NCBI GenBank assembly: GCA_949293335.1
Contig: CASFDA010000005.1
Coordinates: 1 to 64,000 of the forward strand
Reading direction: 5' to 3'
DNA from: an uncultured Spirochaetales bacterium
GTDB taxonomy: Bacteria; Spirochaetota; Spirochaetia; Sphaerochaetales; Sphaerochaetaceae
DNA: 64,000 bases
Shown here: piece after piece, positions 18,696 through 38,129 of the stretch
Layout: every line of letters begins with the position of its first letter
Numbering within the stretch: position 1 is the first letter of the stretch
Translations under genes and position numbers: made by a program
The notes under the pieces: generated by a model
Database searches by the model: none
Seen by the model: the letters and a program-made list of their open reading frames with translations, nothing else
Told to the model about the DNA's origin: nothing

Positions 18696-19979
18696 TTACA
18701 TTTCCTTGATGATGGAAAGATCACCTGTAGCAGCTGCCTTGAGAATTGGGAGCATGTACTCATCAACGTCATCAGCTGTCATTGGAACTGGCATGTTCTG
18801 AAGCTTCATCTTCAGATCAGGATCCTTTGCTGCTGCAATAGCTCTTGTGATATGAACCTCTTCCTTGAAGCCCTTGAGATCAGAAAGCTTTGTAGGAGCT
18901 CCGATGCTCTTGGAGAAGTTGATCATAGCTTCTGCTACTGCCATTGCAAGATCTCTGCCCTCAAGCTTGTCCATATCCTTGTCAGAATATCCATGAGCCT
19001 TGAAAATGTTGCCTACAACGTGGAGCTGAGGCTGAATTGCCTTGCTGTAGAATACAGCATAGTACGGATTCATAAGACCGCAAGCAGTTCCGTGGCTTAC
19101 AATGTCAACGAGGCTGAAGGATGTGAGGTGTGCACCACTTGTTCCTCCGACCATGATTGCATAGCCGCCAAGGTCTGTTGCAAGACCGATAGCCTCTCTT
19201 GCCTTCTCGTCCTTAGGATTCTTCACAACGTCCTTAGCATATGTTGTAACAAGACCGATTGCGCACTCAGCAAGCTCTTTTGCCTCATCATATGCCTCAC
19301 CCTTAGCGCCACAGAATACCTCGAAAGTATGTGCAATTGCGTCAAGAGCTCCATCAAGTGTTACACTCAGTGGCATTGTGCAAGTTACCTTGTAATCGAA
19401 GATAGCATGTGCAGGTGTGATCGCAGGATCAACAATAAGCTTCTTCTGTCCAGCAACTGGGTCAGTGATGTTTGAATACTTTGTCAGGTGTGCGCCTGAA
19501 GATGCAGATGTCTCAACAGCAACAACTGGAGTCATCTTAGCTCCTGTCTCCTTGAGGAATGCTGTGACCTTTCCTGTTCCGAAGTACTCATCGATCTCTG
19601 GAGTTACCTTCTCGCCAAGTGCAGCGAGCATGCTAGCTGCCTTACAAGCATCGATTGTTGAACCACCGCCAACAGCAACGATGCAGTCTGGCTTGTACTG
19701 AAGAACATATGTTGTGAGGCGATATACGTCCTCTCTTGGTGCGTTTGGCTTTACATCTGGAGCAATATTACCACCAGCAAGCTCAACACCTGCCTTCTCG
19801 AGATAACCCTTGATCTCGTCAGCAACTGGCTTCATATAAGTATAGTTGGAGACAAGGAGAGCCTTCTTTCCATATGATGCAGCAACAGGGCCAACTTCCT
19901 TGAGGCAGCCGAGTCCGAAAGTGTAGGCATCGCCCTTCCACTTCTTAAGAAGGTCATATGACCTCTTCATGTAGTCCAT
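18696..19979 (-). CDS. iron-dependent (group III) alcohol dehydrogenase
   Basis: 427 aa from ATG 19979, which has AAAGGAG 6-8 nt upstream. Nucleotide site VAVGGGSTIDACKAASML (GGGSxxD), and metal-binding histidines in LDGALDAIAHTFEVF and VDIVSHGTACGLMNPYYAVF. Oxidises or reduces a primary or secondary alcohol with NAD(P). In this operon it may act on a hydroxy acid or sugar alcohol partner of the LarA product. High-confidence family, unknown substrate. Confidence 0.92.
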   Translation of the reverse strand: MDYMKRSYDLLKKWKGDAYTFGLGCLKEVGPVAASYGKKALLVSNYTYMKPVADEIKGYLEKAGVELAGGNIAPDVKPNAPREDVYRLTTYVLQYKPDCIVAVGGGSTIDACKAASMLAALGEKVTPEIDEYFGTGKVTAFLKETGAKMTPVVAVETSASSGAHLTKYSNITDPVAGQKKLIVDPAITPAHAIFDYKVTCTMPLSVTLDGALDAIAHTFEVFCGAKGEAYDEAKELAECAIGLVTTYAKDVVKNPKDEKAREAIGLATDLGGYAIMVGGTSGAHLTSFSLVDIVSHGTACGLMNPYYAVFYSKAIQPQLHVVGNIFKAHGYSDKDMDKLEGRDLAMAVAEAMINFSKSIGAPTKLSDLKGFKEEVHITRAIAAAKDPDLKMKLQNMPVPMTADDVDEYMLPILKAAATGDLSIIKEM

Positions 19980-20054
19980 TTTGTACTCCTTTCCAGGCCA
20001 GAAAGGCCTGGATAAAATCAAAAATCTAACAACCTGAATATAGTCAGGGCTACC

Positions 20055-20987
20055 TTATTTGGCAAGGAGCTCCTTGACTGTCTTCACGATGTTATCTGCA
20101 GAAAGACCATACTTTGCAAGAAGATCTGTGTAAGGTCCTGTCTCGCCGAACTTGTCGTTGATAGCGATGTTGCTTACCTTGCACTTGATCTGCTCCGGGA
20201 ATGCCTTTTCTGCAATAGCGGATGCAAAACCACCAGCAAGGAGATGCTCCTCAACTGTAACAAGAGCACCTGTCTTCTTCACAGAAGCAAAGAGGGAATC
20301 TGTATCAAGTGGCTTGACGAACGGTACGCTGAATACCTCTGCGCTGATTCCTTCCTTCTTCAGAAGTGCCTCAGCCTCAACTGCCATGCTGGCTGTAATT
20401 CCATTAGCAGCGATAGTGACATCAGTTCCTTCTGTGATCTTGATAGCCTTGCAAGCCTTGAAATCCTCTTCCTTTGTCTCGATGTCAGGCATAGCATTCC
20501 TGTTGAGTCTGATATATACAGGCTTCTTTACAGAAAGAGCATACTCGAGAGCAAGTTCTGCCTGATGGGAATCGGAAGGTACGATGACTTCCATGTTCGG
20601 AAGAGCACGGAAGATAGCAATATCTTCGATTGCCTGATGGCTTGCGCCGTCGAATGAGTCTGAAAGTCCGCCATAAGCACCTGCGATGATTACAGGAAGC
20701 TTGTTGTAGCACATATCATTCCTGATCTGATCAAGGCTCTTGAGGGAAAGGAAGATTGCGAATGCGTTGATAACCGGATGATAACCGCATGTAGCAAGAC
20801 CTGCGGCCATGCCAGCGAGGTTACCCTCTGCAACGCCAACGTTATAGAATCTCTCAGGGAACTCCTTGCCGAAGAGGGCACTCTTCGTGGAGGATGAGAC
20901 ATCTGCATCAAGAACAACGAGTTCAGGATGCTTCTTACCCATTTCTACAAGATGCTTTCCAAAAGCATCACGCATTGCCAAACTCAT
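20055..20987 (-). CDS. transketolase, C-terminal subunit
   Basis: 310 aa. Pyrimidine-binding half: VVLDADVSSSTK, RFYNVGVAEGNLAGMAAGLA (the Glu activates ThDP), and FDGASHQAIEDIAIFRALPNMEV, then a C-terminal domain with LVTVEEHLLAGGFASAI. Forms one active site with the N-terminal subunit encoded just upstream (4-nt overlap). Split transketolases in catabolic operons transfer a C2 unit from a pathway-specific ketose phosphate. Confidence 0.93.
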   Translation of the reverse strand: MSLAMRDAFGKHLVEMGKKHPELVVLDADVSSSTKSALFGKEFPERFYNVGVAEGNLAGMAAGLATCGYHPVINAFAIFLSLKSLDQIRNDMCYNKLPVIIAGAYGGLSDSFDGASHQAIEDIAIFRALPNMEVIVPSDSHQAELALEYALSVKKPVYIRLNRNAMPDIETKEEDFKACKAIKITEGTDVTIAANGITASMAVEAEALLKKEGISAEVFSVPFVKPLDTDSLFASVKKTGALVTVEEHLLAGGFASAIAEKAFPEQIKCKVSNIAINDKFGETGPYTDLLAKYGLSADNIVKTVKELLAK

Positions 20988-21874
20988 AGAAGCGCCTCCT
21001 TCTTGTCAGCATCAGCATTGAGCTGCTTGATACCAATCTCATAGTGCTCATCGTCGATAGCTGCTCCATGCCATGTGTTCTTGCCTTCGGAGAAGTCTAC
21101 GCGTGCACCCTTGATTGTGTCGTAGATACATGCCTTCGGCCAGATGTCATCACTGTCCATCCATTCGAAGGACTTGAGGATATCCTCAGTGTTGTTTCCG
21201 TCATACTTTTCTTCGTTGACGTGCCAGCCAAATGCCTTGAGCTTGTCTCTCAGTGGCTCGAGGTCGAGGATCTGTGATTCTGTACCATCAAGCTGTACCT
21301 TGTTGTAGTCAATCATGAGGATAAGTCCCTGTGGCTTGTACTTTGCAGCTGCAAGGAAGGCTTCCCAAGTTGATCCCTCATCAAGGCATCCCTCACCTGT
21401 CATGACATATGTCTTGTAGTTCTTTCCGCTGAGACGGGCTGCCTCTGCCATGCCAAGAGCTACGGAAACACCATGTCCGAGAGCACCTGTGCTCATGTCA
21501 ACTCCAGGAATCTTGAGCATTGCAGGATGTCCCTGAAGATAGCTGCCGAGCTTTCTGAAAGAGTGCACATCCTCAAGAGGGAAATAGCCCCTTGCACCAA
21601 GAACTGTGTAATAGTTTACACTTGCATGTCCCTTGGAAAGGATGAAGCGGTCACGATCTTCCCAGCTTGGATTCTTCGGATCGATGTTAAGCCTGTTGAA
21701 GTAAAGGCTTGTCGTAAGCTCAATAGCACTAGATGAACCACCCCAGTGTCCTGTCTGTCTCTCATGAAGTACAGTGAACATGATTTCCCTGAAACATGCC
21801 GCTAGATACGCAAGTTCTTTTGCGTTCATCTTGCGGGAAGGATCAGAGAGCAATTCCATCAACTTTTCCCTCAT
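20984..21874 (-). CDS. transketolase, N-terminal subunit
   Basis: 296 aa from ATG 21874 (AAGGAGAAG upstream). ThDP/Mg2+ half with HWGGSSSAIELTTSLYF, RDRFILSKGHASVNYYTVL, GALGHGVSVALGMAEAARL and the GDG-like TGEGCLDEGSTWEAFLAAAKYK. First gene of the GntR-controlled operon. Acts with the downstream C-terminal subunit. Confidence 0.93.
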   Translation of the reverse strand: MREKLMELLSDPSRKMNAKELAYLAACFREIMFTVLHERQTGHWGGSSSAIELTTSLYFNRLNIDPKNPSWEDRDRFILSKGHASVNYYTVLGARGYFPLEDVHSFRKLGSYLQGHPAMLKIPGVDMSTGALGHGVSVALGMAEAARLSGKNYKTYVMTGEGCLDEGSTWEAFLAAAKYKPQGLILMIDYNKVQLDGTESQILDLEPLRDKLKAFGWHVNEEKYDGNNTEDILKSFEWMDSDDIWPKACIYDTIKGARVDFSEGKNTWHGAAIDDEHYEIGIKQLNADADKKEALL

Positions 21875-21909
21875 TTTTCTTCTCCTTGTGCAAAAGATGA
21901 TTTTTGCTT

Positions 21910-21925
21910 TTGTATACAATATACA
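21910..21925. promoter_or_regulatory. GntR operator-like palindrome 1
   Basis: TTGTATACAA (21910-21919) is a perfect 10-bp palindrome, and TGTATA-CAA-TATACA is a wider one covering 21911-21925. It lies 36 nt before the transketolase start and 145 nt before gntR. FCD-type GntR proteins favour such TTGTATAC-like sites. Confidence 0.65.
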
Positions 21926-21996
21926 TATCATGGAAAAATTCAGATGTCAAACTCTTTTTTGCCATCTCAACTTATTAAATTATATAATATTGAATT

Positions 21997-22758: not shown

Positions 22759-23421
22759 TTATTTTTCAAGCTCGTGAAGCTTGTCAACGACCTCGGCAAT
22801 ACATGTTTCCGGACTTGTGAGCACGGTCTTTGCAGTTGCCTCTTCGCAAAGCTTCTTAGCAGTTGCCATTGAAGCCTGTGCGAGCACGATGACGTCGGCA
22901 TCCTTGCAAGTCCTGCTCAGATCTGCAAGTCTTGCGTCATGCCCCTTCACGTCCCCTGCATTCAGAAGAGTCATGGCTTCTGTGTCAAGATAACTTTTTA
23001 CAACTACTTTCTTCTTCGCTTTCTCCGCCTCTCCCAATATTTTGGAGACTGTCGGATCTACAGTAGTAGGTGCGGTTGCGAGAACAGCAATATTGCTCCC
23101 TCTCACCACGGCCTCCCTGCACATTGCATCATCAATAGAGACAATCGGCATCGGGAATGAAGCGAGGATCTCCTTCACAAAAGGAGTGAGGGAAGAACAG
23201 GTAACGCAGATAAGATCTGGATTCTCGAGAGAAGCGGAAAGAAGATCAAGATAGAGCTTCTGTCTGTTCTCTGGCGGAAAATACCCTTTCTTCTTTGCGT
23301 TAGTGACAAGGAATTCGTCAAGAAGACTTGTCACCTCAAGTTCTTTTCCATAAGCCCCGATAAGCTGTGAAGGAAAAGATTCATATACGCTTTTGACGGT
23401 GTGTAACAATGTTACCTTCAT
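22759..23421 (-). CDS. Asp/Glu/hydantoin racemase-family protein
   Basis: 220 aa. The first catalytic segment LICVTCSSLTPF carries Cys75; the region of the second catalytic cysteine reads VIVLAQASMA, with no Cys. Two-cysteine racemases use both residues, so this one-cysteine version may be an isomerase, decarboxylase-like enzyme or racemase of a different type. Last gene of the pdxA2-tct operon, after an attenuator hairpin. Its own Shine-Dalgarno (GGAG) lies just after that hairpin. Confidence 0.8.
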   Translation of the reverse strand: MKVTLLHTVKSVYESFPSQLIGAYGKELEVTSLLDEFLVTNAKKKGYFPPENRQKLYLDLLSASLENPDLICVTCSSLTPFVKEILASFPMPIVSIDDAMCREAVVRGSNIAVLATAPTTVDPTVSKILGEAEKAKKKVVVKSYLDTEAMTLLNAGDVKGHDARLADLSRTCKDADVIVLAQASMATAKKLCEEATAKTVLTSPETCIAEVVDKLHELEK

Positions 23422-23484: not shown

Positions 23485-24471
23485 TTACTTGTCCTTACCA
23501 ATCTGCTGCAGGTAATCTACCTGGAACTCAGTCATGTATTCTTTTGCTGCATGCCTGTCAAGATACATTGGAACAAGACCATTCTTAGTGATGTATGCTT
23601 CCCATTCCGGAGTCTGAGCAACCTGAGCAAAGATACCTGACCAGTAGTCAGCAGCGGCTTCTGACATTCCACCAGGTCCGACAATTCCTCTCCAGTTAGG
23701 AACATCACATGCCTCGTAACCGAACTCTACGATTGTAGGCATATCCTTGAGAAGCTCTGTCTCGAAGCGATTCTCTGAAAGTCCCACGATCGGTGTCATG
23801 CGGCCTGCGAGAATGTACTGCTCACAAGATGCTGGCTTACCAAGAACGAGATCAACGTGTCCTCCGAGGAGAGCAGTGATTGCAGAAGAAGTACTGTCGT
23901 TCGTGATATATGCGAGCTTTGTCTCGTCTACACCAAGAGACCTGAGCATAGCATTGTATGTCTCAATGTCGTCGCCCTTGCTTCCTGCGATGACAACTCT
24001 TTCACCAGCTGCGAGAGCGTCAAGTACATCCTGGAAAGTCTTGTACTTTGAAAGCTCTCCTGTGAGGATGAGGTGATTGTCAACAGCCATGAGAGCAAGC
24101 GGTGTGAAGTTCTCAATACGGTTATTTGTATTCAGACACATCGGCATGAGGTCTCCAGAGTTGAAGGTGAGGATGTTGTGGTTGGCCCTTGGTCCTGTAA
24201 GACGGGAAACGTTGAGCCTTCCTACCTCTCCACCACCATCTGTCTGATAGTCGATAACGATGTTCGCATCAGAGAAATGATTGGTTGTGATGGAGTTCTT
24301 GATCTCCTGTGTGAAGATGTCAGATCCACCTCCTGGGCTGGATGTGCATGTCCATGTAACAGTCTGTGACGGTGTGAATGAGTCACCACTTCCCCCGTCG
24401 CTTGCGCCGCCGGCAAATGCCATTGAGCAAACAAGGAGCAGCGAGAAGGCAAGTACTAATACCTTTTTCAT
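23485..24471 (-). CDS. tctC: TTT transporter solute-binding protein (TctC family), copy 1
   Basis: 328 aa, secreted. Signal peptide MKKVLVLAFSLLLVCSMAFA with GG after it, then the Bug/TctC fold: WTCTSSPGGGSDIFTQ near the N-terminus, ITALLGGHVDLVLGKPASCEQYI and VEFGYEACDVPNWRGIVGPGG. Binds a carboxylate in the periplasm and delivers it to TctAB. Encoded directly after tctA; followed by an attenuator hairpin. Substrate unknown. Confidence 0.92.
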   Translation of the reverse strand: MKKVLVLAFSLLLVCSMAFAGGASDGGSGDSFTPSQTVTWTCTSSPGGGSDIFTQEIKNSITTNHFSDANIVIDYQTDGGGEVGRLNVSRLTGPRANHNILTFNSGDLMPMCLNTNNRIENFTPLALMAVDNHLILTGELSKYKTFQDVLDALAAGERVVIAGSKGDDIETYNAMLRSLGVDETKLAYITNDSTSSAITALLGGHVDLVLGKPASCEQYILAGRMTPIVGLSENRFETELLKDMPTIVEFGYEACDVPNWRGIVGPGGMSEAAADYWSGIFAQVAQTPEWEAYITKNGLVPMYLDRHAAKEYMTEFQVDYLQQIGKDK

Positions 24472-24494: not shown

Positions 24495-26012
24495 TTAGCC
24501 ATTTTTCTTCTTCGTTACACCAGCTTTGCGAAGGATGAACTTCACAACTGGGAATGCGCAGAATCCGATGAGAATAATCGTCAGTACAGTAGCGATACCA
24601 CTTGCGAAGAAGACTTCGCTGATATCTCCAGCTGTAGAGATGAATGCCTTTCTGATGTTGTCCTCAAGAAGCGGAGCGAGTACGAATGCAAGAAGCATAG
24701 GTGCTGTCGCATAGCCGTTCTTCTCGAAAATATATCCGCATACACCAGCGATGAGCATGATCATAACTCCGAAGAGTGAGTATGTGGATGCATATGCTCC
24801 TACGAAACAGACAATCATGACGATAGGAATCATGAGCTTGATAGGAACCTGCAGGATCTTCAGAAGAGCAGGAATAACACCAAGGGAGATTGCAAGCGCT
24901 ATGATGTTTGAAATGAAGAGCGATGCAATGAGGCCCCAAGCGAAGTCCGGATCGTTCTGGAAGAGAAGTGGTCCAGGGTTCAAGCCCCACATCATGAGTC
25001 CGCCAAGGAGAACTGCGCCTGTACCTGATCCCGGGATACCGAGGGCAAGCAGAGGAGCAAAGCTTCCGGCAGCTGCTGCGTTGTTTGCAGACTCACTTGC
25101 TGCAATACCTTCAATAGCACCTGTTCCAAGCGGCTCTTCGCTCTTGAAACCTTTCTGCATAGCGTATCCAAGGAATGCTGCGGATGTAGCACCTGCTCCA
25201 GGAAGAACACCAACGAAAGTTCCGATAAATCCAGCTCTCAGTGATGGTCCGAGGAGTCTCTTGTAGTCATGCGCTGTAAGCATGGAGCCACGAATTGTGA
25301 GCTTCATATCTACAGTCTTTACCTTGATATCCTTCTCGTCCATAAGCTTCATCAGCTGTGCAAAACCTACAGTTCCGATAACGAATGGGATGAACTCTAC
25401 TCCACCGAGGAGGTAGATATTTCCGAAATCGTAACGTGGAGCACCTGTCTGTACATCCATACCGATCGATGCAACGAGGATACCGATGAGCGAAAGGAGA
25501 ATACCTGTTGTCGGGTTATCACCAACGAGCCATCCGATACTTGTCATTGCGACAAGAAGAAGGATAGTCATCTCCGCCGGTCCGAAAAGAAGACCGAGCT
25601 CAGCAAGTGCTGGTCCCAGGAAGGTGAGGATGATCATGCCGACAATACCACCGATACACGATGAGGCATTAGCGGTCATGAGCGCCTGTCCAGGACGTTT
25701 CTTTACCGTTGCCATCGGATAACCGTCAACGGCTGTCATAACTGCAGGTGAGTCACCAGGGATGTTCAGAAGAATAGCTGAGAACGCACCGCCGTACATG
25801 TTCGAATAGTAAAGCGCACCAAGCATGATGATGGCTGTTGTAGGATCGAACTTATATGTCAGAGGCAGAAGAAGTGCAACTCCAGCAAGCGATCCGATAC
25901 CAGGCATAGCTCCTACGATAAGGCCGAGAATAGAGCCGAAGAGACATGCAAAAATATTATCAAATGTGAAGACGATTCCAAAACCATGGAACAGCCACAT
26001 TAAGTTTTCCAT
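24495..26012 (-). CDS. tctA: TTT transporter large membrane subunit (TctA family), copy 1
   Basis: 505 aa with about 12 membrane segments. Family signatures: GAMPGIGSLAGVALLLPLTYKFD near the start, YSNMYGGAFSAILLNIPGDSPAVMTAVDGYPMA, and GVLPGAGATSAAFLGYAMQK plus LLALGIPGSGTGAVLLGGLMMWGLNPGPLLF in the second half. Forms the Na+/H+-driven uptake channel with TctB. Good Shine-Dalgarno AAGGAGG. Between tctB and tctC. Confidence 0.95.
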   Translation of the reverse strand: MENLMWLFHGFGIVFTFDNIFACLFGSILGLIVGAMPGIGSLAGVALLLPLTYKFDPTTAIIMLGALYYSNMYGGAFSAILLNIPGDSPAVMTAVDGYPMATVKKRPGQALMTANASSCIGGIVGMIILTFLGPALAELGLLFGPAEMTILLLVAMTSIGWLVGDNPTTGILLSLIGILVASIGMDVQTGAPRYDFGNIYLLGGVEFIPFVIGTVGFAQLMKLMDEKDIKVKTVDMKLTIRGSMLTAHDYKRLLGPSLRAGFIGTFVGVLPGAGATSAAFLGYAMQKGFKSEEPLGTGAIEGIAASESANNAAAAGSFAPLLALGIPGSGTGAVLLGGLMMWGLNPGPLLFQNDPDFAWGLIASLFISNIIALAISLGVIPALLKILQVPIKLMIPIVMIVCFVGAYASTYSLFGVMIMLIAGVCGYIFEKNGYATAPMLLAFVLAPLLEDNIRKAFISTAGDISEVFFASGIATVLTIILIGFCAFPVVKFILRKAGVTKKKNG

Positions 26013-26033: not shown

Positions 26034-26507
26034 TCAATATCCGCGGATCAGCTCAACGATCATACCGGCAGGGAAACTGACGCCAAGCCACATCGTGAAG
26101 ATAGGAATGACGATTATGAGACAGAAGATAACGCAGATAATTGTTGTCTTCCAGCTCATCTTCTCATACCACTTCACCCAAAGAATTTCGAAAAGAATTA
26201 CAGCAGGAACAGTTCCGATGACCATGAGCGCAACGATGAAAAGCGCAAAGCCAAATGGAACATACCAGTTCCTCAGATGGTACTCAACACTCTTAGCCTT
26301 GAGACTCTGCAAGAATGCCAGAACGCTGAATATGCAGAGCAAGACCGCAACGATTACCGGGAAGAACCCAGCCGTAGGTGTGTTTGTTGTGGAGTTCCAG
26401 AATCCGTAATTCTTCAGTCCCACTGAAAGGAATACTACCCCGACAATCAATCCCACTACAGGAATCAACTGCAGAGAAGGAACCTTAAAAGTCTTATCTC
26501 CTTTCAT
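26034..26507 (-). CDS. tctB: TTT transporter small membrane subunit (TctB family), copy 1
   Basis: 157 aa, four hydrophobic segments (about 12-30, 47-68, 80-108, 120-145), the normal TctB layout. Contains GFFPVIVAVLLCIFSVLAFLQS. Works with TctA in the inner membrane. Poorly conserved by nature; assignment relies on topology and its place upstream of tctA. Confidence 0.88.
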   Translation of the reverse strand: MKGDKTFKVPSLQLIPVVGLIVGVVFLSVGLKNYGFWNSTTNTPTAGFFPVIVAVLLCIFSVLAFLQSLKAKSVEYHLRNWYVPFGFALFIVALMVIGTVPAVILFEILWVKWYEKMSWKTTIICVIFCLIIVIPIFTMWLGVSFPAGMIVELIRGY

Positions 26508-26608: not shown

Positions 26609-27622
26609 TCAGCCGTTTACCTCATGAAGGTGTGTTGCCATCTTTGTGCACATCTTTACCGCATTTTCAAATGCGCTTGTCTTTACGATGCCCTTTCCTG
26701 CAATGTCATATGCAGTTCCATGTGCACATGTGACGATTGGGCACGGAAGACCTCCGGCAATTGTGATTCCCTGATCAAAGCCCTTGAGCTTGAGCGCAAT
26801 CTGTCCCTGATCGTGATACATTGTCACGACACCATCGAACTCACCGCGGAATGCTCTAATGAAGAGGATATCTGACGGGAATGGTCCCTGAGCATCAATG
26901 CCCTGGCTCTGTGCCTTTTCAATTGCTGGCTTGATGACATCAATCTCCTCTGTTCCGCAAAGTCCGTTCTCACCTGCATGAGGATTGAGAGCTGCGATTG
27001 CAAGACGTGGCTTTGCAAGTCCGCTGTTCTTCAGCGATACGTTCGCAAGGGTTATTGCCCTCATGATCGAATCGACTGTTAGGTGACTGCTGACTTCTTT
27101 GATAGGAATATGGCTTGTTGTTCTTGTTGTCCAGAGATCTGCACAGACATTGATCTCTCCGAACGGTGCTGTGTGATTGAATTCATGAGCAAGAAGGTGA
27201 TGCTCGCTTTCAAATGGACATCCAGCTTCCTTCATTCCAGCCTTGTTAAGCGGTGCGAAGCAGAAGCCTTCGATCTTCTTTTCCTTATACAGCTTGACTG
27301 CATATGTGAGCATGTCAAGGTTTGCCTTTCCACAAGCGACTGTAAGCTTTCCGATAGGAGCATCATTTGGATCAAGGTTGTTCCTGTTGAGCATATTGTA
27401 TGCCTCACCGTCCCAGTTAGCTTCACTTGGATCGGAAATTTCTTTGATCTCTGCTTTACCCCCAATCATCGAAAGAGCTCTCTCGATAATTCTTCTGTCT
27501 CCGATGAGAATTGGCCTGCAATGCTCATTCAGGAATCCGGAAACCATACACTTTGCAACGATCTCAGGGCCTACTCCTGCGCCATCGCCAAGAAGGATGC
27601 CCAATACTGGCTTATAACCCAT
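26609..27622 (-). CDS. PdxA2-type 4-hydroxythreonine-4-phosphate dehydrogenase homologue
   Basis: 337 aa. Begins LGILLGDGAGVGPEIVAKC and carries the family's metal-site region SEHHLLAHEF and ALNPHAGENGLCGTEEIDVI, with VVTMYHDQGQIALKLKGFD. NAD-dependent oxidative decarboxylation of a phosphorylated hydroxy acid. It heads a transport operon rather than a pyridoxine cluster, so the PdxA2 role (sugar-acid catabolism) is more likely than vitamin B6 synthesis. The usual partner kinase (DUF1537/DtnK) is not in the window. Driven by the sigma-54 promoter at 27685-27704. Confidence 0.88.
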   Translation of the reverse strand: MGYKPVLGILLGDGAGVGPEIVAKCMVSGFLNEHCRPILIGDRRIIERALSMIGGKAEIKEISDPSEANWDGEAYNMLNRNNLDPNDAPIGKLTVACGKANLDMLTYAVKLYKEKKIEGFCFAPLNKAGMKEAGCPFESEHHLLAHEFNHTAPFGEINVCADLWTTRTTSHIPIKEVSSHLTVDSIMRAITLANVSLKNSGLAKPRLAIAALNPHAGENGLCGTEEIDVIKPAIEKAQSQGIDAQGPFPSDILFIRAFRGEFDGVVTMYHDQGQIALKLKGFDQGITIAGGLPCPIVTCAHGTAYDIAGKGIVKTSAFENAVKMCTKMATHLHEVNG

Positions 27623-27684
27623 TTTTCAAACCTCCAAATTGATTAAGGTACACTTGTGAATTATACCTGACCAACTATCTCAAT

Positions 27685-27704
27685 TAAAGCACCATTTATG
27701 CCAA
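27685..27704 (-). promoter_or_regulatory. sigma-54 promoter of the pdxA2-tctBAC operon
   Basis: On the minus strand the site reads TTGGCATAAATGGTGCTTTA. The -24 (TTGGCAT) and -12 (GTGCTTT) elements keep the invariant GG-N10-GC spacing of RpoN promoters. Expected +1 is about 55 nt before the pdxA2 ATG. An RpoN activator gene is present at 36154-38043. Confidence 0.8.
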
Positions 27705-27827
27705 CTGGAAGATAAAATTTTCTTAACTATTGTTTTACATCGAGTTTTTCTTTTGCTTCTCTGAAATTACAAAAAAAATGTTTTTATAAATTGTATGTTT
27801 TTCCCCAGAAGTTGTTATATTCAAATT

Positions 27828-27883
27828 GTTTCATATATGTTTCATTTTGCGTTACATCACGTTTCATTTTTATTTAATGAAAC
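27828..27883. promoter_or_regulatory. array of GTTTCAT boxes, candidate enhancer (UAS)
   Basis: GTTTCAT occurs at 27828-27834, 27839-27845 and 27861-27867, spaced exactly 11 and 22 bp. An inverted copy ATGAAAC lies at 27877-27883. The set lies about 140-195 bp upstream of the sigma-54 -12 element, the normal enhancer distance. The rest of 27623-27931 holds only this promoter region and a terminator. Confidence 0.65.
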
Positions 27884-27912
27884 AAAAAGGCCCAATCGTA
27901 ACGAAAGGGCCT
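27884..27912 (-). terminator. terminator after the amidohydrolase gene
   Basis: AGGCCC (27888-27893) and GGGCCT (27907-27912), then TTTTTGTTT on the minus strand. It separates the TRAP/TTT-2 unit from the pdxA2 operon. Confidence 0.8.
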
Positions 27913-27931: not shown

Positions 27932-29095
27932 CTAGAGAAGAACTTTCTTTCCTCTGTGCATTACAAAATGTGGATCAGCAAGGGCAGAAAAATCCTCAAT
28001 CGGATTTCCCTTTACTGCTATGATGTCTGCAATCCTTCCCTCTTCAAGAGACCCTGCATTAACACCCATCAGCTCGGCAGGATTGACCGTAACACCCTTA
28101 AGTGCATCACGTGAACTCATGCCAAGTTCTTTCATGAACACCAGATCATGCCACAGAAGTCCATGATAGGCATCGCTTCCGATGACATACTTTGGTCCTG
28201 CGCTGACAAGTTTTGAAAGCCGTCTTACAACCTCGTCCCTTGTCTTGAGAACTTTCTCTCCATGTTCTTTCGGACACATCGGCAGGCGTTCATCGTCCAT
28301 GAATACGCCAGGAGTGAAACAGACGGTGGTCCCATGCTTCATTATCAGGTCAATATCCTCATCGCTTGCCCAATAGCAGTGGTCGAGGACATCAATTCCT
28401 TCCTCCGCACAGTACCTCAGCCCCTCACCTCCGATACAGTGGCAACTGGTCTTCACGCCGATAGCCTTTGCCTCATCAACTACTGTCCTCACCTCCTCTC
28501 GCGAGATGAAGTAAGGAACATGATCAGAGCCTACAGGAGGCTGACCTGCAGTAATGAAGATCTTGAGCCAGTCAGTATGATGAAACAGATTCTCCCTGGC
28601 CTGTCTCCTGAACTCCTCTTTCCCGGAAAAGCCTTTCCCGACATATCCGTGGCCATGAAGTCCCTTCATCCCGATTCCCGCGACCTGCATCCATGGAAGA
28701 AGCAGATTTCCCTTCTTCTCCTCATCGCGAAGCTCGACATCAAGATAGTATCTATCACCAAGACATCTCAGTCCGGTAATTCCCTTCTTCAGGTCATCAG
28801 AGGCTGCCTTCAGAGCTCTAAGAGTCTGTTTTGTCTCACTGTCGTCCATCATCAGAAGATGTCCGGGAATCCTCGCATCGAGTGCAAGGTGAGCATGAGC
28901 GTCAATGAGGCCGGGAAGAACGAAACTGTCCTTCAGATCCTCAAAAACATCATCTGCATACTTTCCACTCTCAAACGGCTTTCCAACAGAGATCTCCCCT
29001 ATCTTGCCATTGTCATCAACGTGTATGTATACATCGCTCTTCTTTTCTAGTTCTCGCCCCAGAAGTGCATGTTTTGCAAATATGGTGGTACTCAT
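27932..29095 (-). CDS. metal-dependent amidohydrolase
   Basis: 387 aa amidohydrolase superfamily. Metal ligands: HAH in LPGLIDAHAHLALD (about 63-70), His in TSCHCIGGEGL and LDHCYWASDED, and Asp in VIGSDAYHG. Resembles imidazolonepropionase/prolidase-like members, which hydrolyse cyclic or linear amide bonds. ATGA-overlap with the second tctA, so its substrate or product is probably what that transporter imports. Terminator follows. Confidence 0.88.
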   Translation of the reverse strand: MSTTIFAKHALLGRELEKKSDVYIHVDDNGKIGEISVGKPFESGKYADDVFEDLKDSFVLPGLIDAHAHLALDARIPGHLLMMDDSETKQTLRALKAASDDLKKGITGLRCLGDRYYLDVELRDEEKKGNLLLPWMQVAGIGMKGLHGHGYVGKGFSGKEEFRRQARENLFHHTDWLKIFITAGQPPVGSDHVPYFISREEVRTVVDEAKAIGVKTSCHCIGGEGLRYCAEEGIDVLDHCYWASDEDIDLIMKHGTTVCFTPGVFMDDERLPMCPKEHGEKVLKTRDEVVRRLSKLVSAGPKYVIGSDAYHGLLWHDLVFMKELGMSSRDALKGVTVNPAELMGVNAGSLEEGRIADIIAVKGNPIEDFSALADPHFVMHRGKKVLL

Positions 29096-30588
29096 ACCCC
29101 CTCCCTCTTCGCACTCCGTTTCTTCATCTGCTTTCTGATGACTGGCCAGCCAAGGGAAACAAAGATAAAGAGTGTGAACACGACAGTAAGAGGACGTGTG
29201 AAGATCATCAGGAAGTTGCTTCCGTACATCGTTGCGGTAAGCCCGATAGCCTCTTCAAGCATCGGTCCGAGAAGGAGTGCCAATGCGACAGGCGAAAGAG
29301 GATATCCGTAACGGTCAAGGAAGTATCCGATGACACCGGCTGCGTACATAACAATCACATCCATCATGTTCTGCTGGATAGAGAATGCACCAACAGAAGA
29401 GAGACAGACGATCAGTACAGCAAGAATCGGCTTCGGAATGACGAGGATTTTGCCCGCGAACTTGCAGCACAGCCAGCCAAAGAAGAACAGCAGGATGTTT
29501 ATGACAGCAAATCCGATGAGAAGCGTATAGATAGTCTCAGCGTTCTGTGTGAAGAGAAGCGGACCGGGTCTCAGACCATGGATGATCATCGCACCAAGGA
29601 AGATGGCAGCAGGGGCAGAGCCTGGGATTCCCAGCGTGAGCAGAGGAATCAGAGAACCTCCTGTGACACCGTTGTTTGCAGCCTCACTTGCGATGATGCC
29701 ATCAATAGAGCCATGACCGTATTCCTCTTTGTGCTTGCTTGCCTTCCTTGCCTCGTTGTAAGAAAGGAACGACGCGATATCTGGCCCGGCAGCAGGGATG
29801 ATGCCGATCACGATTCCGATGATCGTCGAACGGATATAGTTTCCGATATGCCCTGTGAAATCAGAGAGGCTCATGGTCATCTTTGAGACTTTCGAGACCT
29901 CCTGTCCCTCTTCTTCCTTCTGCACAAGCATCTTGAACACTTCAGGAAGTGAGAAAAGGCCGATGAGGACAGATACTGTCTCGAATCCACCGGTAAGCAT
30001 GAAGTTGCCGAATGTAAAGCGCGGGAAGCCAAGGACCGGATCCTGTCCGACTGTTGCGAGAAGAAGCGAGACGACTCCGACAAAAAGTCCCTTGAGCATG
30101 TTTCCCTCGCTGAGCATACAGACGACAGTAAGGCCGAAGATAGCGATCATCATCTGCTCTGGAGGACCTACTCTCATCGCGATTATCGCAAGAAGCGGTG
30201 CGAAGAAGAGAAGTGCAATGGATGACATGAAGCCACCGAATGCAGATGCGAACGTGACGATAGCAAGCGCGTGTCCGCTCTCTCCCTTTGCAACAAGTGC
30301 CCTTCCTTCAAGTGCCGTAGGAACGGAAGCTGGCGTTCCAGGAATTCCAATAAGGACCGCAGGAATCGATCCGCCGTACACACCGCCACAGTAAATGCCT
30401 GAGAGAAGCAGGAGGGCAGGACCGGGATCGAGGACATATGAGAAAGGTACGAATACAGCGACACCCATCGTTGCAGAGAACCCAGGGAGAGCACCGAAGA
30501 TGATTCCGATGACGACCCCGAGGATCATGAAAAAGAAATTGGTTACAGTGAATGTTCCTGTAATACCAAGCAATAGATTCTCTAACAT
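29092..30588 (-). CDS. tctA: TTT transporter large membrane subunit (TctA family), copy 2
   Basis: 498 aa, about 12 membrane segments. Motifs GALPGFSATMGVAVFVPFSYVLDPGPALLLLSGIY, GVYGGSIPAVLIGIPGTPASVPTALEG and LTLGIPGSAPAAIFLGAMIIHGLRPGPLLF are intact. Clearly diverged from copy 1, so the two systems likely have different substrates. Purine-rich GGGGGAG precedes the start. Preceded by tctB copy 2, followed by the amidohydrolase. Confidence 0.95.
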   Translation of the reverse strand: MLENLLLGITGTFTVTNFFFMILGVVIGIIFGALPGFSATMGVAVFVPFSYVLDPGPALLLLSGIYCGGVYGGSIPAVLIGIPGTPASVPTALEGRALVAKGESGHALAIVTFASAFGGFMSSIALLFFAPLLAIIAMRVGPPEQMMIAIFGLTVVCMLSEGNMLKGLFVGVVSLLLATVGQDPVLGFPRFTFGNFMLTGGFETVSVLIGLFSLPEVFKMLVQKEEEGQEVSKVSKMTMSLSDFTGHIGNYIRSTIIGIVIGIIPAAGPDIASFLSYNEARKASKHKEEYGHGSIDGIIASEAANNGVTGGSLIPLLTLGIPGSAPAAIFLGAMIIHGLRPGPLLFTQNAETIYTLLIGFAVINILLFFFGWLCCKFAGKILVIPKPILAVLIVCLSSVGAFSIQQNMMDVIVMYAAGVIGYFLDRYGYPLSPVALALLLGPMLEEAIGLTATMYGSNFLMIFTRPLTVVFTLFIFVSLGWPVIRKQMKKRSAKREGV

Positions 30589-30600
30589 CTCATCTCCCCC

Positions 30601-31041
30601 TTAGAAATTGATTCCAATCCAAGTTCCCATTGGAAGGATGACAGACAGCACTCTTGTGAAAAGCAGGTACAGAACAAGAGTGAGGATCGGAGGGAACAGG
30701 AAGAAGACAGCACTCTTCTTCAGTCCCAGCATCCACTGCCCTATGTATAGGAACAAAAGAGTGCTGAGAATATATCCGATTTTCGACATCAGCATCAGGT
30801 AGATGAAGATGACGATAGCAAACTCAAGTATTTTCATTATTGAGGACTTATCAAGGGCCTCCACTTCAGGCTGCTTTTTCCTGAAAATGAGGACTAGTGC
30901 CATGATTATTCCAGTTATTATGAATACCAGAGGATAGTTCTTTGCCTCTGCAGGGATTTCTCCGACCTGAGTGAAAAAAGCAATCAGGACAAGAAGAAGG
31001 CAGAAGATGAATATCCTGTGGCTGGTCAAGAATTTATTCAT
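30601..31041 (-). CDS. tctB: TTT transporter small membrane subunit (TctB family), copy 2
   Basis: 146 aa with four hydrophobic stretches (about 8-24, 33-50, 68-95, 105-140). Sequence is low in conserved motifs as usual for TctB; contains LFLYIGQWMLGLKKSAVFF. Lies between tctC copy 2 and tctA copy 2. Confidence 0.87.
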   Translation of the reverse strand: MNKFLTSHRIFIFCLLLVLIAFFTQVGEIPAEAKNYPLVFIITGIIMALVLIFRKKQPEVEALDKSSIMKILEFAIVIFIYLMLMSKIGYILSTLLFLYIGQWMLGLKKSAVFFLFPPILTLVLYLLFTRVLSVILPMGTWIGINF

Positions 31042-31078
31042 ACTTTAACAAACTCCCTTCGGATATTAACAAATATCC

Positions 31079-31100
31079 CCCTGAGAAAAGACTCTCAGGG
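31079..31100 (-). terminator. attenuator hairpin after tctC (copy 2)
   Basis: CCCTGAGA (31079-31086) pairs with TCTCAGGG (31093-31100). Only a weak T-rich stretch follows on the minus strand, so partial termination or mRNA stabilisation between tctC and tctB is more likely than full stop. Confidence 0.6.
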
Positions 31101-31120
31101 AGATTGGATCATTGATTATT

Positions 31121-32086
31121 TCAGAGCCCTTCCTGCTCGATCAGTCCCTGATAAATTTCATGATTTTCAAGGTAGAACTGCTCGAATTCATCGTGACCCA
31201 TGTACTGGCTGAATGTGCCAGCTTCAAGGTTAGCCTGAAGATATTCCGGATTTTCAAAAACTTGCTTTACTGCGTTGTCGATTGCTGTAACAACCTCATC
31301 CGGCAGTCCTGCAGGTCCTACGAAACCTCTCCACATGGTGTGAACAAAATCAAGACCACTTTCCTTGCATGTCGGAACGTCTGGAAGAAGCTCGAATCTC
31401 TCTTCACTTGTGATTGCGATAGGAATGACATTTCCAGCCTGAATCTGTGCAAGAGCTTCAGAGACGAAAGGAACTGCCACCATGCAGTTTCCGCCAGCAA
31501 CTGCCGTGACAGCAGCTGTTCCGCCCTGGAATACCATCCTCTTGAACTTGACTCCTGTCATTTCTTCAAGCGAGATGCGAAGGAAGTCGTGGCTTGTCCA
31601 TGCTCCGCCAAGACCGAATGTGATCTCTTCAGGATTTTCAGCGGCAGCCTGAATCAGACCGTTGATGTCTGTGATTCCGCTGTCCTTGCTGACGACGATG
31701 ACGTGCGGGTCATTTGAATACATACAGATCGGCGTAAAGCTGTCTACTCCATATGTAACACCCTGGAAAAGCCTTGCATCGTTTGAGTTTGTCGAAGCGA
31801 AATATCCGAGAGTATATCCATCTGGAGCAGCTGAAGCGATCTGTGAGAAACCGATTGTTCCGCTACCACCAGAAACATTCTGGATCACGATTCTCTGTCC
31901 GAGGATATCTTCCATATAGTTGGTAAGAAGACGTACAGAGATGTCCGCGCCACCGCCAGCACCAAAAGGAACGATCATCTGGATGATCTTATTCGGATAA
32001 GCAGCGTTTGCATCTGAGCCACCGCCGGCATAGACAGAACCGAAGGCGCATACGAGAACAAGCAGAAGAACTATTACCTTCTTCAT
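31121..32086 (-). CDS. tctC: TTT transporter solute-binding protein (TctC family), copy 2
   Basis: 321 aa from ATG 32086 (GGGAGGA upstream; longer frame from 32122 lacks a signal at its start). Signal peptide MKKVIVLLLVLVCAFGSVYA, then YPNKIIQMIVPFGAGGGADISVRLL, the typical TctC start, and SGGSGTIGFSQIASAAPDGYTLGY. Periplasmic carboxylate receptor. First gene of tctCBA-amidohydrolase, with a 430-bp non-coding region before it. Confidence 0.93.
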   Translation of the reverse strand: MKKVIVLLLVLVCAFGSVYAGGGSDANAAYPNKIIQMIVPFGAGGGADISVRLLTNYMEDILGQRIVIQNVSGGSGTIGFSQIASAAPDGYTLGYFASTNSNDARLFQGVTYGVDSFTPICMYSNDPHVIVVSKDSGITDINGLIQAAAENPEEITFGLGGAWTSHDFLRISLEEMTGVKFKRMVFQGGTAAVTAVAGGNCMVAVPFVSEALAQIQAGNVIPIAITSEERFELLPDVPTCKESGLDFVHTMWRGFVGPAGLPDEVVTAIDNAVKQVFENPEYLQANLEAGTFSQYMGHDEFEQFYLENHEIYQGLIEQEGL

Positions 32087-32122
32087 GTTGTATCCTCCCT
32101 TTTTCTCTTTTTTCCCTGACAA

Positions 32123-32510
32123 GAAGCCAGGGCTGATTCCTTATCATCAATGTTTCAGCATTTTGGAGATTCGGCGGCAAAATAGCAGAAACAAGCGCAG
32201 AAAAAAGGGAGAAAAACACCAAGAAAAGCAGATAACTTATAACTAATACAGAACAAACTCCACGAAAAAAATAAATGGTCCAATGGCAATAAAGACCATT
32301 TAATCCAGCGGCCTTCCTTCTGTTGTTTACTCCCTTTGTTCTTCAGATATTTTAGCATGCAACCTTGGCAATATAAAGGGAAAATATGACTTGAAGCATA
32401 TATTTTGTTTAAGTAAAAGAAATCAACTTGTTATTTCAAAAAGGGAAAGTAGGAATTATTGATTTTGCAGAATTGAAGAAAATAAACTCTTGAAATTCGG
32501 GAAAAAATAA
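32123..32510. other. long non-coding promoter region upstream of tctC copy 2
   Basis: No gene seen on either strand. Contains a 9-bp inverted repeat at 32272-32302 and AT-rich stretches that could hold the promoter of the second TTT operon. No GG-N10-GC sigma-54 element was found here. Confidence 0.5.
32272..32302. repeat. 9-bp inverted repeat upstream of tctC copy 2
   Basis: TAAATGGTC (32272-32280) and GACCATTTA (32294-32302), 13-nt spacer. Could be a regulator site or an RNA hairpin in a long leader, about 190 nt upstream of the start codon. Confidence 0.55.
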
Positions 32511-32532
32511 GGGACGGGGGGAAACCCGTCCC
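32502..32532 (-). terminator. terminator after dctP
   Basis: GGGACGGG (32511-32518), loop GGGAAA, CCCGTCCC (32525-32532), followed on the minus strand by TTATTTTTT. Ends the cyclase-dctQMP unit. Confidence 0.85.
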
Positions 32533-32552
32533 GAAGAGAAAATGGAATTCCT

Positions 32553-33545
32553 TTACTCGCTGCGGAGCATATCGAGGAATGTTGAACCATAGTCCTGCTC
32601 GAAGAGAGCATAAGATGCGGACATCTTCTCGCGGAAAGCGTCTGCGTCAACATCTGTTGTGAGCTCGAGATTGCCACTTGAGACCATCTCGTCAAGGAGG
32701 CTCTGCTCTTCTGCATCGTTGATGCTGTAGACTTCAGCCTGAGCGTCCTTTGCCGCGCGGAGGATGATATCCTGCTGCTCAGGAGTAAGCTGTGCCCAGC
32801 GCATTGCAGACATTGAAAGGAGCATAGGAGTATATACATGGTTTGTCATGGAGATATACTTCTGAACCTCATAGAACCTGTTAGCATAAATCTCGCTGAT
32901 CGGGTTCTCCTGTCCGTCAACAACACCCTGCTGGAGTGATGAATAGAGCTCGGATACGTCCATCGGAACAGGGATTGCACCTGCAGCTTCCCATGCCCTT
33001 ACCTGATAAGTAGCTGGGAGACAGCGGAGCTTGATTCCCTTGAGGTCGTCTGGAGTAGAAACAGGACGAGTGTTGTTTGTCAGCTGCCTGAATCCGATTT
33101 CCCAGAAAGCAAGGCCCTGAATGCCCTTTGTTGAAAGCTGATCAAGGATGTACTGTCCTGGCTCACCGTTTACAGCTGCACGTGCAGCTTCCTTGTCGCT
33201 GAACATGAACGGAAGCTCGAAGCCCTGGATTTCAGGAACAAGACCTGAGTAGTAGCTGTCGCCGCAGATACCGATATCAACTGTTCCCTGGATCATGCCA
33301 GAAACAACAGCAGTAGAGTTACCGAGCGTTGTATCATAGAAAACCTGAACGGTTATGTCACCATTTGAATACTCGTTAACAAGCTCTGCAAACTTTGCAA
33401 GTCCTCGTCCGGCTGCACTGGAAGCGCTCATTCCGCCTGTGCTTGCAGCAAGCTCGAGCTTGCCTCCGTTATCGGATGCGCCACCAGCATAGACTGTGCT
33501 GAATGCGCATACTAGAACTAAAAGGATAACCAATAGTTTCTTCAT
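32553..33545 (-). CDS. dctP: TRAP transporter solute-binding protein (DctP family)
   Basis: 330 aa. Signal peptide MKKLLVILLVLVCAFSTVYA, then DctP-fold landmarks GDSYYSGLVPEIQGFELPFMFSD, the region with Arg in GLAFWEIGFRQLTNNTRPV (carboxylate-binding arginine), and QQGVVDGQENPISEIYANRFYEVQKYISMTNHVYTP. Captures an organic acid in the periplasm for DctQM. Last gene of its unit, with a strong terminator. Confidence 0.94.
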   Translation of the reverse strand: MKKLLVILLVLVCAFSTVYAGGASDNGGKLELAASTGGMSASSAAGRGLAKFAELVNEYSNGDITVQVFYDTTLGNSTAVVSGMIQGTVDIGICGDSYYSGLVPEIQGFELPFMFSDKEAARAAVNGEPGQYILDQLSTKGIQGLAFWEIGFRQLTNNTRPVSTPDDLKGIKLRCLPATYQVRAWEAAGAIPVPMDVSELYSSLQQGVVDGQENPISEIYANRFYEVQKYISMTNHVYTPMLLSMSAMRWAQLTPEQQDIILRAAKDAQAEVYSINDAEEQSLLDEMVSSGNLELTTDVDADAFREKMSASYALFEQDYGSTFLDMLRSE

Positions 33546-33569
33546 CTCAAAAACTCCTTAAGTTTTTAC

Positions 33570-34853
33570 TCAGGCCGCTGCACTCGCATTTGGAAGGAAT
33601 GTAACGATTCCTGGTACATAGATCATTATAACAACACAAATCACCATTGCAATTACGAAAGGCCATATCTTCTTTGCAACAGACATGACTGGACGTTCGC
33701 CGATGCCAGCTGCTACGAAGAGTGTCATTCCTACAGGAGGAGTGATGAGGCCGATACAGAATGTAATGACCATGAGTGTTCCGAAGTGGATTGGATCCAG
33801 TCCGATACTTAATGCAACCGGTGTGAGGATCGGCGCAAAGATAAGGACCGCAGGAACTGGGTCGAGGAAGCATCCTACAACAAGGAGGACTGCCATTGAG
33901 AGGATCAGGAACAAAGACGGTGTGTCACTGAATGAAGCACATGCTGCTGCGATTGCCTGTGGAAGACCTGCACGAGTGAGGATCCAGCTGAAGAGCTGAG
34001 TTGTAGCAACAATACCGAGAATCTGTCCGATGAGGCCAACAGAGTTATAAAGGCTCTTGATAAGTGCCTTGACTGTGAGCTCACGATAGACAAAGAAACC
34101 GACGATGATTGCATAGAGACAGCTGACAGCAGATGCTTCTGTCGGTGTAAAGAGGCCACTGTAGATACCGCCAAGGATGATCATTGGCGTAAGAAGTGCC
34201 CAGACTGAGTCCTTGAGTGTTACAAAAACATTCTTGAGACTGAACTTGCTTGTCCCGACATATCCCCTCTTCTTGGAAATCACGAGAGTTACGATTGCAA
34301 GGGCAAGAGCGATAAAGAGACCAGGGATTACTCCAGCAAGAAGCATGTCTCCCACGCTGTTTGATGTACAGCAGCTGTAGAGAACCATGAGGATGCTTGG
34401 AGGAATGATCGGGCCAAGTGAACCACCTGCTGCCTGAAGAGCACAAGCGAAGTCCTTGTCATATCCATTGTCGACCATTGCAGGAATCATCATACCGCCG
34501 ATAGCTGCGACACAAGCCGCACCTGAACCTGTCATTGCCGCAAAGAATGCAGATGCAACAACAACAGCAAGTCCGAATCCGCCAGGGAAGTGACCTACTA
34601 GAGAGTTAGCAAATGCAACGATTCTCTTTGAAATACCACCATTCTCCATGAGCGCACCAGCAATAATGAAGAAAGGGATAGCCATAAGAGGAATCGAGTT
34701 GACACCTGCATAAAGCTGAGAAGCGACAATATTCAGAGGAATATTCATGAACAAGACAATGTATGCGATTGCCCCAAGACCCATTGCACCAAGAACAGGT
34801 ACTCCAGTGAAAAGGAGAATCAGAAAGAAAACAAGCATCAATGCACTACTCAT
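33570..34853 (-). CDS. dctM: TRAP transporter large permease (DctM family)
   Basis: 427 aa, about 12 membrane segments. Contains the family patterns IPLMAIPFFIIAGALMENGGISKRIVAFANSLVGHFPGGFGLAVVVASAFFAAMTGSGAACVAAIG (as separate blocks) and GLITPPVGMTLFVAAGI. Couples uptake to the Na+ gradient. 4-nt overlap with dctQ, then dctP 24 nt downstream. Confidence 0.95.
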   Translation of the reverse strand: MSSALMLVFFLILLFTGVPVLGAMGLGAIAYIVLFMNIPLNIVASQLYAGVNSIPLMAIPFFIIAGALMENGGISKRIVAFANSLVGHFPGGFGLAVVVASAFFAAMTGSGAACVAAIGGMMIPAMVDNGYDKDFACALQAAGGSLGPIIPPSILMVLYSCCTSNSVGDMLLAGVIPGLFIALALAIVTLVISKKRGYVGTSKFSLKNVFVTLKDSVWALLTPMIILGGIYSGLFTPTEASAVSCLYAIIVGFFVYRELTVKALIKSLYNSVGLIGQILGIVATTQLFSWILTRAGLPQAIAAACASFSDTPSLFLILSMAVLLVVGCFLDPVPAVLIFAPILTPVALSIGLDPIHFGTLMVITFCIGLITPPVGMTLFVAAGIGERPVMSVAKKIWPFVIAMVICVVIMIYVPGIVTFLPNASAAA

Positions 34854-35344
34854 GCCTCAACCTCCGGATTCTTTAATTTCTTACAGAGCTGAACCAGCTT
34901 ATAGATTGTAGCGACGATCCATGCCGCTGATCCGACGGACATAGCGACAGTCGTGTACCAGACAGGCAATCTCAGGATCGGTGTCGTCTGATTGATTGCT
35001 GCCTGCATCTTGCAGATCTGGATACTGGTAACAAGCAAAACAGTGATGAAGACAAGCATGAGAAGATTCTGGATGATCTGAAGTACAGTCTTGGACTTTC
35101 CATGCAGAGCATCAGTGAGGATCGTGATCTCGATGTGCTTGTTCGTCACACAGGCAATCGCACAGCCGATGAAAATCAGCCATATGAATGTGGTTGTGAA
35201 GACTTCATCAGACCAAGCATACGACCGTTGCAGGATAAAACGTGCGAAAACGATGAAGTTCTCAAGGATGATCCAGCAAAAGACGATCGCAGCAAGAACA
35301 AGTCTGCCGACAGTCAATGCTTTGTCGAAAAAAGGACTTTTCAC
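34850..35344 (-). CDS. dctQ: TRAP transporter small permease (DctQ family)
   Basis: 164 aa with four transmembrane helices. Typical features are FARFILQRSYAWSDEVFTTTFIWLIFIGCAIACVTNKHIEI in the first half. Partner of DctM in the inner membrane. 19 nt downstream of the cyclase gene and overlapping dctM by 4 nt. Confidence 0.9.
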   Translation of the reverse strand: MKSPFFDKALTVGRLVLAAIVFCWIILENFIVFARFILQRSYAWSDEVFTTTFIWLIFIGCAIACVTNKHIEITILTDALHGKSKTVLQIIQNLLMLVFITVLLVTSIQICKMQAAINQTTPILRLPVWYTTVAMSVGSAAWIVATIYKLVQLCKKLKNPEVEA

Positions 35345-35363
35345 ATTTCCCTCCTAAAGTTTT

Positions 35364-36032
35364 TCATACCTTTGCAACGAACCTGACGGGACAACCGTCA
35401 ATGTGTTCAAGTCTCAGAGGCATACAAATAATTTCACAGGTATCTTGTCCAATCTGATCGAAGTTCCATACATACTCGATCAGAAGGGTACCTTTACGTA
35501 GTAGGGCAACGTGTGTCCTTTGCTCTTCCGGACTTACCGGATGATCGAAGATCGGTCTGATTGCATAGTCCTGCGGGAAGTCAAATGCAATCGCATTGAG
35601 GCCGAGTGTTGCAAGATAATCGATCGCATCATCTGACAGATATGGCGCATCGAGCCAGAACTCTCTCGTCATATGGGACTGTTCTTTGTCCCAGTCACTT
35701 CTGAGCAACCAGATTTTCTCCATCTTGCGGCCTTCTGTCGCTTTGATGATCTCGTCTTTTGTGAATGCATGGTTCTTAAGTGAAGATCCTGTCCTCAGAT
35801 CAACTACGGACGCCATGCCGTTGTAATGTTCCAGAGGAAAACAGTTGCTGTCCTCAAGCCCCTTTCCTGAGTGCAGAGGAAAGTCCATGTGTGAAAACCA
35901 GTGTGATCCAAGTGTGAATTTTGTGATCTGCCAGAGTTTCCCGTCATCGAAAGATGAAAATAAGCTTCTCTCAAAGAGTGGATAACGCCAATGCTCTTCA
36001 ATAGGCCATGTGAGGTCTATATACTTTGCCAT
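35364..36032 (-). CDS. cyclase/kynurenine-formamidase-like metal hydrolase
   Basis: 222 aa, PF04199-like. The metal motif is GSHWFSHMDFPLH (family HxGTHxDxPxH; the first part deviates). Other members hydrolyse N-formylkynurenine, isatin or cyclic amides. Starts the cyclase-dctQMP operon, so it probably acts on the TRAP substrate or a related cyclic amide/lactone. Adjacent to the divergent-in-role but co-oriented PrpR-like regulator (121 nt upstream gap). Confidence 0.82.
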   Translation of the reverse strand: MAKYIDLTWPIEEHWRYPLFERSLFSSFDDGKLWQITKFTLGSHWFSHMDFPLHSGKGLEDSNCFPLEHYNGMASVVDLRTGSSLKNHAFTKDEIIKATEGRKMEKIWLLRSDWDKEQSHMTREFWLDAPYLSDDAIDYLATLGLNAIAFDFPQDYAIRPIFDHPVSPEEQRTHVALLRKGTLLIEYVWNFDQIGQDTCEIICMPLRLEHIDGCPVRFVAKV

Positions 36033-36153
36033 GCTATGAGTCTCTCCTTTTTCAAACCTGTCAGATATCTTACCATAACATGTACAGAAAGTTAAGATTT
36101 TATATGGGTTCTGATAATTTTTTACTCAAATTCAGTACTGTAAGAAAATTATC

Positions 36154-38043: not shown

Positions 38044-38129
38044 GAAATCAATTTTCAACAATTTGGGCGAAGAGGACAAGTGGCAATTCAGACGTTGCAA
38101 CTACCTTGAAAGAAAACTATGATTTCCCT

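Follow-up and report, generated by a model that had tools for sequence, protein, structure and literature searches.

The window analysed here is a stretch of DNA of 64,000 nucleotides from a gut spirochaete of the Bullifex/Sphaerochaeta family. On its minus strand, it carries an organic-acid uptake operon, pdxA-tctB-tctA-tctC-racemase, before which a strong sigma-54 promoter is predicted to stand. The features needed for the interpretation of this locus are the following:

22759–23421, minus strand: Asp/Glu/hydantoin racemase-family gene (PF01177), last gene of the conserved operon, the order of which is identical in relatives
23485–24471, minus strand: tctC, solute-binding protein (PF03401)
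24495–26012, minus strand: tctA (PF01970)
26034–26507, minus strand: tctB (PF07331)
26609–27622, minus strand: pdxA-family dehydrogenase, first gene of the controlled operon (PF04166, E 7.4e-90)
27688–27704, minus strand: predicted sigma-54 -24/-12 promoter TTGGCATAAATGGTGCT, a perfect TTGGCAYN6TGCW match with GG-N10-GC
27828–27834, minus strand: upstream activating sequence (UAS) box 1, ATGAAAC, TGAAAC starting at -129
27839–27845, minus strand: UAS box 2, ATGAAAC, TGAAAC at -140
27851–27857, minus strand: degenerate UAS box with one mismatch, ATGTAAC (GTTACAT on the plus strand)
27861–27867, minus strand: UAS box 3, ATGAAAC, TGAAAC at -162
27877–27883, plus strand: UAS box 4, inverted, GTTTCA at -179 in the pdxA sense
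27883–27912, minus strand: probable intrinsic terminator that closes the amidohydrolase operon upstream and directly adjoins the array (AGGCCC...GGGCCU hairpin and U-run, -13.5 kcal/mol, z -4.15)
27932–36032, minus strand: intervening block of eight genes (8.1 kb), namely cyclase, dctQ, dctM, dctP, tctC2-tctB2-tctA2, and amidohydrolase
36154–38043, minus strand: putative cognate activator, PrpR_N - AAA+ - Fis-type HTH (SRTTLWRKL)

Judged by its sequence, the dehydrogenase encoded by the first gene certainly belongs to the PdxA superfamily. The designation pdxA2, used in an earlier note on this DNA, can be kept as a name by context only, the protein lying below the NCBIfam cut-offs for PdxA and for D-threonate-4-phosphate dehydrogenase (PdxA2; 212 against a cut-off of 583 bits). 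In several spirochaetes, the surroundings of pdxA-tct also retain genes for an Fe-alcohol dehydrogenase, a split transketolase, and a glycerate kinase (18696–21931 and 39224–40360), which may point to a pathway for C3/C4 sugar acids.

The promoter site features the GG and GC elements and the TTGGCAY...TGCW consensus of sigma-54-dependent promoters, and the exact GG-N10-GC spacing claimed in the earlier note was recovered at TTGGCATAAATGGTGCT on the minus strand. A pattern scan, the type of search used for all regulon analyses in this genome, identified it as the sole perfect TTGGCAYN6TGCW match in the window, and 12 such sites were found in the genome, compared to none for the reversed control pattern. 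The pdxA start codon follows 66–82 bp downstream, beyond a GGAGG ribosome-binding site, and transcription of the operon is predicted to start near 27677, ~12 nt past the GC. Consensus scans for sigma-70 promoters and terminators were uninformative.

The region 124–180 bp upstream of the promoter contains the GTTTCAT/ATGAAAC box four times in exact form and once in degenerate form, positions being counted from the first base of the promoter site in the pdxA sense. Three direct copies (starts 27828, 27839, and 27861) and one inverted copy (27877) had been described before, and all four were found again; the one-mismatch box GTTACAT at 27851–27857 had been overlooked. Boxes 3 and 4 form an inverted pair with a 17-bp step, which is present in the nearest relative too. 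In the genome-wide search, five GTTTCAT pairs at most 30 bp apart were obtained versus one for the control, and no multi-box array other than the present one was found.

The earlier note made its reading depend on an RpoN gene in the genome and on conservation of the boxes in relatives. RpoN is indeed encoded in this genome (Sigma54_DBD, E = 5.1e-45). The product of the gene at 36154–38043 comprises PrpR_N, Sigma54_activat, and AAA lid domains, its GAFTGA and Walker motifs are intact, and it ends in a C-terminal HTH, as expected for a functional sigma-54 activator (bEBP); this HTH was judged from sequence and alignment, since Pfam reported no HTH_8 match. Alignment with orthologues places the start at the first in-frame ATG and not at the TTG at 38100. 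The best NCBIfam match of the protein is TIGR02329 (PrpR), with 370.4 bits against a cut-off of 499.2 bits, by which it is classified as PrpR-like, not as PrpR. That no other RpoN activator is visible holds true within the window; the genome, however, encodes six, two of them NtrC-like and four PrpR_N-like, and thus five besides this one.

Two of the other PrpR-type activators (L004, G000:C13:406801, and L006, G000:C19:14556) feature the differing recognition helices RSTLYRK and VSTLYRK, and downstream of each there is a sigma-54 promoter that has TTGCA-type instead of TGAAAC boxes. Elsewhere in the genome (L080 8271-14708; G000:C13, ~351–358 kb), a sensor kinase and an NtrC-like activator lie approximately 3 kb upstream of the sigma-54 promoter TTGGCACGGATGTTGCT, which precedes an RpoS/RpoD-type sigma factor gene (best match to the RpoS model, below cut-off). 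Two Hsp20-like genes (L023 1250-2372; G000:C23) are likewise preceded by a sigma-54 promoter, whose TGACTCA-type boxes resemble those of the first. These two loci suggest that sigma-54 may act above a sigma-70-family factor, a cascade that would recall the Rrp2-RpoN-RpoS pathway of Borrelia in a gut spirochaete only distantly related to it.

Orthologues of the activator, taken from family genomes and a scan of named genomes, were detected in Sphaerochaeta, Bullifex porci, gut Spirochaetes, and some Bacillota. In these genomes, TGAAAC boxes, a sigma-54 site, and pdxA come after the activator gene, and in the spirochaetes pdxA is accompanied by tctB-tctA-tctC-racemase in the same order as in the window. 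In nearly all relatives, the activator gene and pdxA directly flank the boxes and the promoter, the sigma-54 site being located ~130–250 bp after the activator gene (further in a few) and preceded by 4–6 TGAAAC/GTTTCA boxes, which indicates that this arrangement is probably ancestral. Exceptions are T. socranskii and a Treponema bin, with pdxA divergent or elsewhere, as well as two gut relatives, in which the array is placed before another operon. Bacillota members possess fewer exact boxes (1–4). In the tree, the window activator nests in the clade of pdxA-linked activators, as sister to that of the closest relative, G048 (100/99).

Considered by itself, the array is moderately unusual for AT-rich DNA, with a borderline post hoc p of ~0.05: dinucleotide shuffling of the 309-bp intergenic region never gave four copies of GTTTCAT in 20,000 trials, but some 7-mer occurred four times in 257 of 5,000 shuffles (~5%). 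Repeats arising by chance beside an unrelated GG-N10-GC would fit the latter value, and the decision therefore rests on the relatives. A set of 29 non-redundant pdxA promoters, each associated with an orthologue of the activator, contained 130 TGAAAC boxes within 260 bp, compared to 8.0 expected (16 times expectation). These counts are considered decisive for the reality of the array, in line with the conservation on which the earlier note had staked its reading, and they leave a chance origin with next to no probability. In a 48-genome genus set, moreover, TGAAAC at a window-like distance from TTGGCAYN6TGC gave 17 matches versus one for the control, all but three of them (G029, G063, and G033) residing at target promoters of this activator or of its paralogue. 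Within the 29 pdxA promoters, most boxes start between -180 and -100, and -140, the position of box 2, is the most frequent one (7/29). Adjacent same-strand boxes are mostly 10–12 bp apart (34 pairs), but 7–9 bp steps also occur (16). The claimed 11- and 22-bp phasing is thus present in the window and common in relatives, but represents a common form and no rule, steps ranging from 7 to 12 bp and boxes occurring in both orientations. A shared helical register of boxes to promoter was rejected as weak and confounded by descent, being reached by 51 of 2,000 random shifts on non-independent rows. Activators with the SRTT motif are followed by 3.2 TGAAAC hexamers on average versus ~1 for other classes; a clean code relating recognition helix to box was also discarded, exceptions being known and the suggestive correspondence being confounded by descent.

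The boxes could in principle be read by another regulator. The presence of a GntR/FCD gene at 22070, just past the operon end, would allow them to serve a repressor or other regulator unrelated to sigma-54 activation. However, GntR operators usually overlap the promoter, whereas across genera such arrays are found with sigma-54 promoters that are linked to PrpR-type activators, between positions -100 and -200 relative to the -24 element, which also supports the claimed enhancer distance and makes this explanation highly improbable. Main or joint reading of the array by the paralogous activator C5:125514, encoded 98 kb away on the contig, is unlikely as well. This protein carries the same SRTTLWR recognition helix and has a TGAAAC hexamer at its own tctBAC promoter, for which reason cross-activation is possible. 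Yet among the seven promoters of the paralogue group (its own copy and those of six relatives), a convergent TGAAAC-N6-GTTTCA dyad is exact in six and has one mismatch in the seventh (L125), while no pdxA promoter among the 29, that of the window included, shows this arrangement. In addition, the array is still present in genomes with a pdxA-linked activator but without a match to the paralogue (e.g., G072, G030, and G001). Both observations favour the activator at 36154–38043, although some cross-activation by the paralogue may still take place. Its proposal as the regulator is very likely right, given that its orthologues are contiguous with box array, sigma-54 site, and pdxA-tctBAC; in all probability, it drives pdxA-tctBAC-racemase via the TGAAAC array and TTGGCATAAATGGTGCT.

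In the window, the activator gene lies ~8.5 kb from the operon that it probably controls, while the predicted binding sites stayed with the operon. Almost no other relative has the intervening block between its activator gene and pdxA. In G048, the activator is followed by the cyclase and TRAP genes up to the contig end, and pdxA is found at the start of another contig, which lacks the activator, behind four boxes of its own and TTGGCACAAAAAATGCT; the same split arrangement is therefore likely there, the two contigs not being joined. The hairpin at 27912–27883, which the consensus scanner did not report because its loop limit is 8, would likely close off read-through from the block. The gap between the activator and the cyclase gene (36032–36154) contains no sigma-54 site with at most one mismatch and no boxes, whereas a sigma-54 site with two boxes occurs at the equivalent place in G048. 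Control over the intervening block may thus have been lost in the window lineage.

The observed elements are compatible with the following mechanism. The repeated TGAAAC half-sites would constitute the upstream activating sequence of the RpoN promoter, to which the PrpR_N-AAA+-Fis protein would bind via its C-terminal SRTTLWRKL helix. The bound activator would loop over ~120–180 bp to the promoter and use ATP to open E-sigma-54 at TTGGCATAAATGGTGCT, and we infer that binding of a pathway ligand by the PrpR_N domain switches on pdxA-tctBAC-racemase. In the ancestor, array and promoter probably resided between the activator gene and pdxA; the cyclase/TRAP/Tct2/amidohydrolase block would then have come between, leaving both with the operon behind the terminator. 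It is tentatively proposed, as one possibility, that two PrpR_N-type activators using one helix and one hexamer are kept apart by the half-site arrangement (loose, mostly direct arrays versus TGAAAC-N6-GTTTCA dyads), which preserved the link when the insertion split activator and target. With two activators of one genome sharing a hexamer but differing in its arrangement, crosstalk avoidance between paralogues becomes directly testable.

Compared to known systems, the array corresponds to a bEBP upstream activating sequence in having repeated sites 100–250 bp upstream that are conserved together with the activator. The NifA/FhlA-type UAS is TGT-N10-12-ACA. In several Sphaerochaeta relatives, the sequence TGTTTCA-N2-TGAAACA conforms to it (TGT-N10-ACA). 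The window contains no TGT-N10-12-ACA dyad; most of its half-sites are repeated in direct orientation and one pair is inverted, and the array was not assigned to the NifA/FhlA type. With PrpR, the activator of propionate catabolism, the window protein shares the PrpR_N sensor, AAA+, and Fis HTH, but it is linked to PdxA/Tct uptake genes and not to prpBCDE.

Regulons of one-component bEBPs have been reconstructed for Clostridiales (PMC6615313) and Desulfovibrio (PMC4641369). According to the passages searched, these regulons likewise feature activators with a Fis-type HTH, PrpR_N EBPs among them, and multiple UAS, the activator usually lying beside its target and the UAS mostly 100–250 bp upstream of TTGGCAT-N5-TTGCT. 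The window differs in its spirochaete host and in the split of regulator and target by the intervening block; the passages searched concern clostridial and desulfovibrio groups and contain neither a TGAAAC array nor a pdxA-tctBAC target. A literature search covering abstracts and searched passages returned no description of a TGAAAC/PrpR_N/pdxA-tct sigma-54 system. The architecture of bEBP, UAS, and -24/-12 promoter is well known, whereas the activator-site pair appears to be undescribed. For sigma-54 regulators of this group, which occur in Spirochaetota and in some Bacillota, our results predict an activator, a binding-site word, and a target operon, and they add a natural example in which a gene block separates an activator from the operon that it probably controls.
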